From positions 1 through 64,000 of the forward strand of contig CANQDU010000010.1 in the NCBI GenBank assembly GCA_947593925.1: 64,000 nt of DNA, written 5' to 3'. This stretch comes from an uncultured Clostridia bacterium. GTDB taxonomy: Bacteria; Bacillota; Clostridia; Oscillospirales; JAAYOS01. This document shows positions 1 through 60,638 of this stretch, one piece after another (within the stretch, counting starts at the first letter, position 1; every line of letters begins with the position of its first letter). The notes below the pieces were generated by a model. That model had not been told where the DNA came from. It saw only the letters and a list, made by a program, of their open reading frames with translations, and ran no database searches. The translations under genes and the position numbers were made by a program.

Positions 1-288
1 GCAGAGATTTTCCGGTTAAGGAAAGAGGGGTACAAAGGGGAGAAAACCGTTGGTTTTCTCCCCTTTGTGTGCTTTTTGGTTACTTTTTGCACAAGCAAAA
101 AGTAACGCAAGGGTGTGGGGCTGCAAAGCCCCACATGGGGGCGCGGGGGCGCAGCCCCCGCAATGTGCCGGTGAGGCTCTGCCTCACTCAGGGACGCGGG
201 GGTCGCCCCCGCGGATACCCGCGGGGCTTCCCCGCTGGAGGGGTGTGGGCAAAGCCCCGCAAGGTTGCGAGCCCCGCCCGCGAAATTT
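1..288 (+). repeat. Partial copy 1 of a hairpin-rich interspersed element (right arm only; cut by window edge)
   Basis: Near-identical to 28241-28500 over the first ~170 bp; contains GGTTACTTTTTGCACAAGCAAAAAGTAAC and GGGGAGAAAACCgttGGTTTTCTCCCC palindromes; ends at the recG stop codon. Confidence 0.85.
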
Positions 289-10539: not shown

Positions 10540-11073
10540 ATATATGCTTTGCTTCGGCGCGAAATGTGCTAGAGTCGGCGCGAAATGTGCTCGCTTCGCT
10601 GCGCACCCTTTCGCGCCGAGACTTTCACTTGAAATTGCGCAGGCGCAATTTCAAGTGAAGCCGCCGGACAGAGCGAAGCTCTGCCGGCGGCGGGCGCTCC
10701 GCTACGCGCCGAGTTTTTTGCCTCCGGCAAAAAATCGACGCATTCCCACGCGGTCGGCGACCGCGTGGGAGCCCTTTTAAATAAAATGCTCGGGGCGAAT
10801 GAATCGCCCCTGCGCGAAGTTGCTTGCCGTAGGCAAGCAACTTCAACCGCGCGAACAGGCGCGGACGCCGCCTTTGGCGGCGTAGACAGTCGGAAGCGGT
10901 AGAGGTTCGAGGGCGCATTCTTGCCGCCGAAATTTACGGATTTGACTCTATTTCGCCGCCTTTGGCGGCGAAACTCTGCGAGGCCGGCGCGGAAAATTGC
11001 GGTCGCGGGCTTCGCCTGCTCCTTTACCGATTTGTCGCGAGTCGGCGGCGCAACTCTGCGAGGCTGTCGGCAA
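10540..11073. repeat. Mosaic palindromic repeat array (copy I)
   Basis: Ordered hairpins: TTCACTTGAAATTGCGC/GCGCAATTTCAAGTGAA, GCCGCCGGaCAGAGC/GCTCTGCCGGCGGC, TTTTTTGCCtcCGGCAAAAAA, CCCACGCGGTC/GACCGCGTGGG, GGGGCGA/TCGCCCC, AAGTTGCTTGCC/GGCAAGCAACTT; modules recur at 36.7, 48.8 and 60 kb. Confidence 0.9.
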
Positions 11074-16904: not shown

Positions 16905-17505
16905 GCGCCATCAGCGGGCGGAGCCCGCAACCGTCTAGCGGGGAAGCCCCGCATCCAAGCGGGCAGAGCCCACACCCGTATAGCGGGGAAGCCCCGCGGG
17001 CATTCGCGGGGTGACCCCGCGTCCCTAGGTAGAGCGGAGCTCTAACGACACTATACGGGGATTGCATCCCCGCACCCCGCGTTACTTTTTGCTCGCGCAA
17101 AAAGTAACCAAAAAGCGCGCAAAGGGGAGAAAACCAACGGTTTTCTCCCCTTTGTACCTCTCTTTCCTTAATCGGAAAGGATCTGCGACGCGGGACGTCC
17201 GTCCGTAGCTTAGTATCAGTGTCCACGCTTATACTTCCACCAGAACCGAAAGCTCCGTTTTCTCGGGATGCCTCTTCATTACGCTTATAGCGTGAGCGTA
17301 GGACCGGATTTTTGTATCTACTACGCAGGAACTGTTCGATGTTGTCGAATTGAGTGGGAAAGTTTGATGGTCTCCCCGGAAACTCACCCGGTCGGACGAT
17401 GGATTTGCTGGATACAGAGTGTCGTCCTGTTATGTGGGTCGTGGTGTTGTGTCTGTATTGGGAGAAGGATTATTAAGGGAGAGGGCGAAGCCCTCTCCCT
17501 TTCTC
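16905..17505 (-). repeat. Copy 2 (inverted) of the hairpin-armed interspersed element
   Basis: 17160-17500 aligns to the reverse complement of 27950-28270 at roughly 85% by eye; arms carry GTTACTTTTTG...CAAAAAGTAAC; fills the 3'-3' gap between two convergent genes. Confidence 0.88.
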
Positions 17506-27778: not shown

Positions 27779-28510
27779 CGCGGGGCGGGCTCCCGCGTCC
27801 CTGTTACGGGGTAAAACCCCGTACGAATATGCGGAACCTGGCGGTTCCGATACCATTGCGGGGCTGCGCCGCCCCGCACCCCTGCATTACTTTTTGCTCG
27901 CGCAAAAAGTAATCAAAAAGCGCGCTTAAGGGAGAGGGCTTTGCCCTCTCCCTTAAAAATCCCTCTCCCAATACAGACACAACACCACGACCCACATAAC
28001 AGGACACACTCCGTATCGAACAAATCTATTATCCCACCGGGTGAGTTTCCGGGGAGGATATCAAACTTTCCCACTGTATTCGACGACATCGAACAGTTCC
28101 TGCGTAGTAGAAATAAAAATCCGGTCCTACGCTCACGCTATAAGCGTAATGCAGATACTTTCCCGAGAAAACGGAGCTTTCGGTTCTAGTGGAAAGTTTG
28201 AGCGTGGACACTTGTACTAAGCTACGTACGGACGCCCCGCGTGGCAGAGACCTTCCGATTAAGGAAAGAGGGGTACAAAGGGGAGAAAACCGTTGGTTTT
28301 CTCCCCTTTGTGTGCTTTTTGGTTACTTTTTGCACAAGCAAAAAGTAACGCAAGGGTGTGGGGCTGCAAAGCCCCACATGGGGGCGCGGGGGCGCAGCCC
28401 CCGCAAAGTGCCGGTAGAGCTCCGCTCTACCTAGGGACGCGGGGTCTCGCCCCGCGAATGCTCGCGGGGCTTCCCCGCTAGATGGGTGTGGGCTCTGCCC
28501 GCTCGGACGC
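27779..28510 (+). repeat. Copy 3 (most complete) of the hairpin-armed interspersed element
   Basis: Left arm with ATTACTTTTTGCTCGCGCAAAAAGTAAT, ~300 bp core shared with copy 2, right arm shared with copy 1. Confidence 0.88.
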
Positions 28511-28550
28511 GGCGCTTCCCCCGCTTGCACAGCGCGCGATTTTCCGCGAC

Positions 28551-36725: not shown

Positions 36726-37112
36726 ATTTCGCGGCAAATCGCGCTCGCTGCGCTCGCTTACCAATTTGCCGCGAAGCCGCCGGACAGAGCGGAGCTCTGC
36801 CGGCGGCAGGCGCTACGCTACACGCCGAGTTTTCCGCCTTCGGCGGAAAATCGACGCATTCCCACGCGGTCAGCGACCGTGTGGGAGCCCTTCCAATTGA
36901 AATGCTCGGGGCGAATGAATCGCCCCTGCGCGAAGTTGGCGGCTTTGCCGTCTTCGACGCACGCTCCGCGAGAGGTGTAAATTTCGCCGTACACGCCGCC
37001 GAAATTTACGGATTGAAATTCATTTCGCGCCTAACGGCGCGAAACTCTGCGAGGCTACACGCCGTCGGACAGAGCGAAGCTCTGCCGACGGCAAGTGTTG
37101 CGAGGCTTTGAA
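36726..37112. repeat. Mosaic palindromic repeat array (copy II)
   Basis: Same module order as 10540-11073 with paired base changes; internal duplicate hairpins at 36776-36807 and 37061-37092. Confidence 0.9.
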
Positions 37113-46453: not shown

Positions 46454-46541
46454 TGGCGGAGAAGGTAGGATTCGAACCCACGGATGCTCTCACATCGACG
46501 GTTTTCAAGACCGCTCCCTTCGACCACTCGGGCACTTCTCC
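46454..46541 (-). tRNA. tRNA-Ser(UGA)
   Basis: Reverse strand GGAGAAGTGCCCGAGTGGTCGAAGGGAGCGGTCTTGAAAACCGTCGATGTGAGAGCATCCGTGGGTTCGAATCCTACCTTCTCCGCCA; anticodon TGA, long variable arm. Confidence 0.96.
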
Positions 46542-46687
46542 GTGCGAAATGATGATACCACAAAAGTCTCGATTTGTCAAATATGTCGGTTGACGGCTCT
46601 GCGGAAATATGTTACCATAAATGCGTAAAAAGTCGATTGCGGAGCGGAAACCCCCGGAGCGCTTCCGTCCGCCCGCAGCCGATACAA

Positions 46688-46787
46688 ACGGAGCGCGTGA
46701 CTGACGGAAGTGGAGCACCACATGGAGCGCGTGTCCTCGGCAGCCGACCGTCTGGGTGGAATCCTTCCGATACCCGGGCGGATTTTT
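46688..46787 (+). promoter_or_regulatory. ZTP (pfl) riboswitch with intrinsic terminator
   Basis: CGTGACTGACGGAAGTGGAGCACCACATGGAGCGCG...GCCGACCGTCTGGGT matches the ZTP core as recalled; CCGTCTGGGT (46748-46757) can alternatively pair with ACCCGGGCGG (46772-46781) before TTTTT. Confidence 0.9.
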
Positions 46788-48740: not shown

Positions 48741-49008
48741 GCTTTCGCGGGAAATCGCGCTCGCTTCGCTCGCTTACCAATTTCCCGCGAGACTTTCACT
48801 TGAAATTGCGCAGGCGCAATTTCAAGTGAAGCCGCCGGACAGAGCGGATCTCTGCCGGCGGCAACGCTCCGCTACGCGCCGATTTTTTTGCCTCCGGCAA
48901 AAAATCGACGCACGCTCCGCGAGAGGAGTTTTTTCCGACGTACACGCCGCCGGAAAAAACGATTAGAACTTGTTCGCCGCTTGCGCGGCGAACTCTGCGA
49001 GGCTTTAA
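48741..49008. repeat. Mosaic palindromic repeat array (copy III)
   Basis: Shares TTCACTTGAAATTGCGCAGGCGCAATTTCAAGTGAAGCCGCCGGACAGAGCG and TTTTTTTGCCTCCGGCAAAAAATCGACGCA with copy I. Confidence 0.9.
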
Positions 49009-58752: not shown

Positions 58753-59976
58753 ATGGCACTCATCGTACAGAAATTCGGCGGAAGCTCGGTAAAGGACGCC
58801 GAGCATATCCGCAACGTCGCCCGTATCATAACCGATACATACAGGGCAAACAACGACGTCGTGGTAGTACTCTCCGCTCAGGGAGACACCACCGACGAGC
58901 TCATCGAGAAGGCGCATGAGATAAACGAGTCGCCCTCCCGCCGCGAGATGGATATGCTGCTCTCGACAGGGGAGCAGGTATCGGTGGCGCTCTGCGCCAT
59001 GGCGATAGAAAAGCTCGGCTGCCCCGTCATTTCGCTCAACGCGTGGCAGGCGGGGATAAGCACCGACTCGAACTACTCCAACGCGAGCATCAAGACGATA
59101 AACGACGAGCGCCTGCGCGCCGAGCTCGACCGCAGGAACATAGTCATCGTCACCGGCTTTCAGGGGATAAACCGCCGCTACGATATAACGACGCTCGGCC
59201 GCGGAGGGTCGGACACATCCGCCGTGGCGCTCGCGGCGCGTATCCGCGCCGACCTCTGCCAGATATACACCGACGTGGACGGAGTGTATACCGGCGACCC
59301 GCGCATCGTCCCCGAGGCGCGCAAGCTCGACGAGATAACCTTCGACGAGATGCTTGAGCTCGCGAGCGCCGGAGCGCAGGTGCTCCACAACCGCTCGGTA
59401 GAGATAGCAAAGCGCTTCGGCATACAGCTCGAGGTCCTCTCGAGCCTCGACCCGAAGCCCGGAACCATAGTTAAGGAGGTAGCAAAGAAATTGGAGAGCA
59501 CAGCCATCAGCGGAGTCGCGCGCGACGAGAACGTCGCCTGCATAGCGATAACACACCTCGAGGATAAGCCGGGCGTCGCGTACCGCATATTCTCGCTGCT
59601 CGCGCAGAGGAAGATAAACGTTGACATCATCCTTCAGTCGATAGGCCGCGACAACACGAAGGACATCACCTTCACCGTCTCGAAGGGCTACGCGGACGAG
59701 GCGATAGAGGAGCTCATGGAGCACAAGGACGAGCTGAACTTCGCGGACATATCCTGCGACACGAACGTCGCGAAGATCTCGATAGTCGGCTCGGGCATGA
59801 TAAACCATCCCGGCATAGCGAGCCAGCTCTTCGAGGCGCTTTACAACGTCGGGATAAATATACGCATGATCTCGACAAGCGAGATAAAGGTCTCGGTCCT
59901 CATCGACGCCAAGGACAGCGATATGGCCATCCGCGCCGTACACCACAAGTTCTTCGGCGAGCGCGCCGGGGCGTAA
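58753..59976 (+). CDS. lysC: Aspartate kinase
   Basis: LIVQKFGGSSVKDAEHIRNVA, GRGGSDTSAVALAA, two ACT domains. Confidence 0.96.
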   Translation: MALIVQKFGGSSVKDAEHIRNVARIITDTYRANNDVVVVLSAQGDTTDELIEKAHEINESPSRREMDMLLSTGEQVSVALCAMAIEKLGCPVISLNAWQAGISTDSNYSNASIKTINDERLRAELDRRNIVIVTGFQGINRRYDITTLGRGGSDTSAVALAARIRADLCQIYTDVDGVYTGDPRIVPEARKLDEITFDEMLELASAGAQVLHNRSVEIAKRFGIQLEVLSSLDPKPGTIVKEVAKKLESTAISGVARDENVACIAITHLEDKPGVAYRIFSLLAQRKINVDIILQSIGRDNTKDITFTVSKGYADEAIEELMEHKDELNFADISCDTNVAKISIVGSGMINHPGIASQLFEALYNVGINIRMISTSEIKVSVLIDAKDSDMAIRAVHHKFFGERAGA

Positions 59977-60108
59977 ACACATACCGCGCCGGTTCGCGCG
60001 GTGGAAGTTGGCGGCAAAGCCGCCAACTTCGCGGAGCCCCGATTCATTCGGGGCGAGCATTTTAATCGGAAGGGGTCCCCAAACGCTCCATCGGAGCGTT
60101 TGGGGAAT

Positions 60109-60169
60109 CAGCGATATGGCCATCCGCGCCGTACACCACAAGTTCTTCGGCGAAAGAGCGGGAGCGTAA
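60109..60169 (+). pseudogene. Duplicate of the lysC 3' end (SDMAIRAVHHKFFGERAGA*)
   Basis: 45 nt identical to 59916-59960, then 18 nt encoding the same ERAGA* with different codons; offset 193 bp. Confidence 0.92.
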
Positions 60170-60181
60170 ACACAAAGCTGT

Positions 60182-60216
60182 TAAAATCACGGACGGCAAA
60201 GCCGTCCGTGATTTTG
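60182..60216 (+). terminator. Rho-independent-type terminator (probable original lysC terminator)
   Basis: AAAATCACGGACGGCaaaGCCGTCCGTGATTTT. Confidence 0.75.
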
Positions 60217-60638
60217 TGTTTGCACCAAAAGCCTCGTATAATTTCGCCGCCAAGGGCGGCGTCCGCGCCGGTTCGCGCGGTGGAAGTTGGCGGCAAAGCC
60301 GCCAACTTCGCGCAGGGCGATTCATTCGCCCGAGCACGTTTAATCGGAAGGGTTCCCACGCTGTCGCTGACCGCGTGGGAAGGCGTTGATTTTCCGCCGA
60401 AGGCGGTTCCGCGCCGGTTCGCGCGGTTAAAGTTGCTTGCCATAGGCAAGCAACTTTGCGCAGGCGGAATTCATTTCCGCCGAGCATTTTAATCGGAAGG
60501 GCTCCCACGCGGTCGCCGACCGCGTGGGAATTGCGTAGCATAGCGCTGCCGTCGGTAGGGCTATGCCCTATCCGACGGCCTCGCTATTGGCAAGAGCGCG
60601 GATTTCATCCGCGCTCTTGCCAATAGCGAAACTTACGC

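Follow-up and report, generated by a model that had tools for sequence, protein, structure and literature searches.

Three places in a 64,000-nucleotide stretch of contig CANQDU010000010.1 from an uncultured Clostridia bacterium (hereafter the window, taken at its full length) carry copies of one hairpin-rich sequence, and the question is what kind of repeat this is and how its copies have come to differ. A sequence-only reading had described an interspersed, non-coding, arm-inverted unit with paired hairpin changes and had likened it to a MITE. The description holds, the same order of parts recurring in four related genomes when the copies are aligned and no Rfam family being matched; the classification as a classical MITE is not supported.

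Copies in the window

One of the three copies runs off the start of the contig, one lacks its right arm and one is complete (Table 1). The cores of copies 3 and 2, earlier put by eye at about 85% identity, are indeed related, and the measured figure is 89% over the whole 300 nt (27961–28260 on the minus strand against 17170–17468 on the plus strand). Inverted-repeat pairs between copies, one of 158 nt at 91% and another of 150 nt at 89%, greatly exceed what chance would give. The arms are inverted as had been proposed (27857–27935 against 28300–28378, 81%), and both palindromes seen in them are present and perfect. The HP2 hairpin is unlike on the two sides, being GGGGAGAAAACC/GGTTTTCTCCCC on one and GGGAGAGGGC/GCCCTCTCCC on the other.

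Table 1. Features of the three copies of the repeat in the window
Feature	Position	Strand	Remarks
Copy 1	1–288		Core truncated at the contig start; HP2L, HP1 and outer hairpins follow as far as the recG stop at 289
Copy 2	16913–17501	+	Core on + strand; lacks right HP1 and right outer array
Copy 2 HP1 palindrome	17081–17108		Right-type loop GCTCGCGC on left side (mosaic arm)
Copy 2 HP2L hairpin	17120–17154		CAAAGGGGAGAAAACC/GGTTTTCTCCCCTTTG
Copy 2 core	17155–17474	+	BLAST match 17170–17468
Copy 2 HP2R hairpin	17475–17501		AAGGGAGAGGGC/GCCCTCTCCCTT
Copy 3, complete	27779–28521 (about)	-	Core on - strand
Copy 3 outer hairpin array, 3' side of core	27779–27885
Copy 3 HP1R palindrome	27886–27913		ATTACTTTTTGC/GCAAAAAGTAAT
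Copy 3 HP2R hairpin	27926–27956		Terminator-like on - strand (outward)
Copy 3 core, ~318 nt	27957–28274	-
Copy 3 HP2L hairpin	28275–28311		Terminator-like on + strand (outward)
Copy 3 HP1L palindrome	28322–28349		GTTACTTTTTGC/GCAAAAAGTAAC
Copy 3 outer hairpin array	28350–28521		M4, M3 at ~28413, M2, M1 at ~28464

Elsewhere in the window Rfam models located only a ZMP/ZTP riboswitch (46687–46764, plus strand, 51.5 bits) and a tRNA (46457–46541, minus strand). A second, unrelated mosaic palindrome family, which has no core and is built from hairpin modules other than those of the core unit, occupies 10617–10960, 36727–37092, 48743–48990 and 59984–60531; genome-wide it gave 109 matches (palindromes being counted on both strands) in more than 40 separate places. 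There is also a 66-nt duplication (59916–59981 and 60109–60174, 92% identity) resembling a gene 3' end that has been duplicated, a hairpin repeat lying between its two occurrences.

Architecture of the unit

Aligned copies follow the plan (four-hairpin module)n-HP1-HP2-core-HP2'-HP1'-(module)n, in which a constant core of about 320 nt lies between two mirrored hairpin arrays, the whole measuring about 0.6–1 kb. The repeated unit is mirror-symmetric and discrete, its discreteness being a point on which the sequence-only reading had asked for a check. From the outside inwards the outer modules are M1 (GCGGGGAAGCCCCGC), M2, M3 (stem GTGAGGC, GTAGAGC or GGAACC) and M4 (stem GCGGGG..CCCCGC or TGTGGGG..CCCCACA), followed by HP1 (GTTACTTTTTGC..GCAAAAAGTAAC), the spacer CAAAAAGCACAC, HP2L and the core; on the core's other side come HP2R, the spacer GCGCGCTTTTTG, HP1' and the mirrored modules. 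The outer modules make up between one and three units, each about 100 bp long, and the sense of M1 is one way on the left and the opposite way on the right, with few exceptions. Within the window they are confined to the three copies, and across 42 congener loci they are found almost exclusively around cores. The HP1 pairs listed enclose only a core, at a spacing of 413–431 or about 363 bp. Many units terminate in the hairpin GCGGGCNNAGCCCGC, often preceded by ATCW; since this hairpin is also found away from the core, including in a second repeat family, it does not alone define the unit. The arms are GC-rich, and the GC content of the core is about 48% versus 62% for the window.

Two variants were seen. 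At loci L012, L016, L021, L028, L038 and L073 an extra hairpin block (..GTAGAATGTATCTATGCGGAAAAGGTTCGAG..) lies between HP1 and the outer modules, on either side. In genome G001, loci L144–L148 carry a core subfamily of about 265 nt with a different 3' domain and an HP1 spacing of about 363 bp.

The paired change GTGAGGC/GCCTCAC versus GTAGAGC/GCTCTAC reported between copies is real, but it represents two recurrent alternative M3 modules (64 and 50 instances) and not point substitutions; for M3 and M4 only module frequencies were used, the regular-expression pairing counts being incomplete. True compensated stem changes are found in HP1 (TT/AA, CT/AG, AT/AT; 87% paired) and in HP2L (AAA/TTT, ATA/TAT, GAA/TTC; 90% paired). 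Such two-sided changes could result from selection for the structure or from palindromes being repaired by template switching, and the data fit either.

Distribution and genomic context

The repeat is restricted to a single genus of uncultured rabbit-gut Clostridia, with about 20–30 copies per genome. A search of the core against its own genome and its relatives, as had been suggested, gave genus-restricted matches: 20 in the source genome (G000), 33 in the sister species G003 and, among the matches listed in the multi-genome search, at least 7 each in G001 and G004, with none in the congener G002. Other genomes of the family and order had no core save for one short, weak match in G014, which falls in an apparently coding stretch and was discarded. 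An exact-motif scan of GTDB r220 (about 85,000 species genomes) returned 42 stretches, all in three "Lapin" (rabbit) Clostridia MAGs, which are other rabbit-gut members of the genus. The core was unmatched in viral contigs, phages and plasmids, and a phage or plasmid origin was rejected on that ground.

That copies lie in gaps on the 3' side of genes is true of the three in the window but fails genome-wide. By heuristic gene calls (longest GC3-rich frames) the neighbouring genes at 33 sites are 13 times tandem, 12 times convergent and 8 times apparently divergent, and a 3'-gap insertion rule was rejected on these counts.

Sites compared across sister species

Most sites are common to sister species, with some presence/absence differences. 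Core orientation was the same in 7 and opposite in 7 of 14 two-flank orthologous pairs, some of which represent one site in different species pairs; opposite orientation was counted only where both flanks align. At recG the core is reversed between G000 and G003, and in G004 only the outer hairpins are left. One G004 site (L010 versus L116) lacks the unit altogether, as do four G003 sites (L002, L004, L012 and L014), which carry short hairpin remnants or an ordinary terminator in its place, and unoccupied sites often retain one or two hairpins. The target-site duplications that one might have sought at these empty sites were not visible, either at L010/L116 or in G003. A third species is occupied where this was checkable, namely G004 for L004 and L012 (via L150 and L157, both one-flank matches) and G003 for L010 (via L165), so that some of the unoccupied sites are probably losses. 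A truncated core at the L020 site (about 205–300) is common to G000 and G003, and was therefore probably inherited.

At G003:C14:31500–32900 (L161) a plain hairpin-plus-T-tract terminator takes the place of the full element that lies between two genes in G000. Its stem resembles an outer module, and it is possibly a collapsed element now serving as a terminator.

Evolution of the copies

Although sites are shared between species, the cores group mostly with others of their own species, apart from a few in G000 and G004 that fall outside their cluster, and they are more alike within species than at orthologous sites. Cores compared at orthologous sites are 81–91% identical, and the flanks of those pairs 86–95%. 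A recombination test among copies was positive in G004 (p=0.005) and G003 (p=0.019) and negative in G000 (p=0.38) and G001 (p=0.065). In copy 2 and in L035 of G004 the arms are mosaic, a right-type HP1 and spacer being joined to a left-type HP2. These findings are compatible with recombination both from arm to arm and from copy to copy; the copies evolve in concert.

Alternative explanations

The core has no ORF, as had been noted, the longest open run per core being 69–110 aa where a shuffled control reaches 100. A protein remnant was also rejected; the open runs are long, but their translations have no Pfam match and the frames are broken by core indels, mostly of 1 nt. Could the core instead be a multicopy gene for a functional, structured ncRNA, shielded on either side by terminators that point outward (HP2 plus T-tract), with the hairpin arrays as the termination or processing context of its RNA? 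We think this unlikely. It is non-coding yet has conserved blocks, HP2 is terminator-like outward on both sides, and there is a modest folding signal, stronger on the minus strand (alignment fold z of -3.1 minus and -1.5 plus; minus-strand folding of individual cores against shuffles, mean z -2.6, range 0.1 to -5.8). However, the core has no match in Rfam 15 even at E=10, both-sided changes are few (33 cells minus and 46 plus, of about 5,000), and a mutual-information search for core pairs gave no clear helices, its signal being dominated by species-cluster differences. Also against such a gene, the 2 terminator-like sites found, against 1.1 ± 1.0 expected, are within chance for the region, the T-tract is offset from the stem by about 5 nt, no promoter-like site was found in the region, and cores at orthologous sites match each other less well than the sequences flanking them do. 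The whole unit matched nothing in Rfam 15 at the gathering score; the best hit, the sRNA BTnc231, scored 32 bits where the cut-off is 80.4, lies for the most part over the arm hairpins and was dismissed as hairpin resemblance. We also regard as doubtful the reading that a constant core, possibly an RNA gene, flips and is exchanged between fixed hairpin-array landing pads by recombination alone, without a dedicated transposase or recombinase.

A classical MITE would descend from a DNA transposon by internal deletion and would still be moved in trans via its terminal hairpins. The unit is indeed short, non-autonomous, without coding capacity and multicopy, and appears inverted at its ends, but it shows no target duplication at the compared sites, its arms are GC-rich, the GCGGGCNNAGCCCGC hairpin in which many units end is not unique to it, and among the HP1 pairs listed none encloses a gene that might represent an autonomous version. 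The autonomous relative with a transposase that the sequence-only reading had proposed to look for was not found among these pairs; Y1_Tnp (PF01797), RVT_1 and DDE_Tnp_1 domains were absent from five genus genomes, while positive controls worked. On the absence of Y1 and of RVT_1 from these five genomes we rejected, respectively, IS200/IS605- or REP-type mobilisation and retro-mobilisation, including by a retroelement or group II intron. MAGs tend to lose repeated transposases, so that absence of the three families searched is suggestive only. We hold a classical MITE to be quite improbable. All genomes compared are short-read MAGs, and some orientation calls could therefore be assembly errors. 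Many contigs do end inside cores, and the arms repeat each other in inverted form at about 80% identity, as would be expected were the flips and species clustering assembly artefacts of repeats. We give this very little credence, as the two arms of one copy have different HP1 loops, spacers and HP2 hairpins, which makes paths distinguishable, opposite pairs had to align on both flanks, and copies within one genome differ by 3–23% and so are not collapsed consensus sequences.

Comparison with known repeats

The BOX elements of Streptococcus (boxA-boxBn-boxC) have constant ends around a variable middle (PMC3049150). Like them the unit is small, intergenic, modular and hairpin-forming, with a variable number of modules and no known transposase of its own; it is set apart, by description, in that the topology is reversed, with the constant core inside and the variable mirrored arrays outside, and it differs in hosts and sizes. 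REPs are sequences of 20–40 bp with a GTAG or CGTC tag, often accompanied by RAYT genes, although REPs without RAYT exist (PMC3733652). With REPs and BIMEs the unit shares GC-rich extragenic palindromes in arrays and lineage specificity. Unlike them it is 0.6–1 kb long with a core of about 320 nt, its ends lack the GTAG/CGTC tag, and the RAYT-type Y1 transposase is absent from the five genus genomes, control genomes being positive. The hairpin-forming elements of sponge mitochondria, as far as their description goes (PMC2800124), are similar in being repeats that spread through intergenic regions, and differ in being mitochondrial. Defining tests of these families count against the unit's being a MITE, a RAYT-associated REP or, by topology, a BOX element.

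Proposed origin and remodelling

We favour, as the probable explanation, a non-autonomous, non-coding interspersed repeat of one genus whose copies are now reshaped mainly by recombination, be it between arms or from one copy to another. An enzyme that worked in trans on the hairpin ends, possibly since lost, may have dispersed the repeat originally; against this first step stands that no mobiliser of the three families was found in the five genus genomes. Homologous recombination between the inverted arms would then flip the core, recombination between the repeated hairpin modules would account for growth of the arrays and for deletion down to a hairpin, and recombination between copies for gene conversion. 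Locally the repeat probably does no more than place a block of hairpins, its HP2 stems terminator-like, in intergenic or 3'-UTR sequence, and a dedicated cellular function would not be required. On the best reading it is MITE- or BOX-like in behaviour yet a member of no family tested.

Among small bacterial interspersed repeats, a constant core inside mirrored, modular hairpin arrays looks like a new architecture. With reversed, replaced or collapsed copies at the same sites in sister species, the genus lends itself, as a natural experiment, to asking how repeats spread and become uniform where the commonest kinds of transposase are not found.
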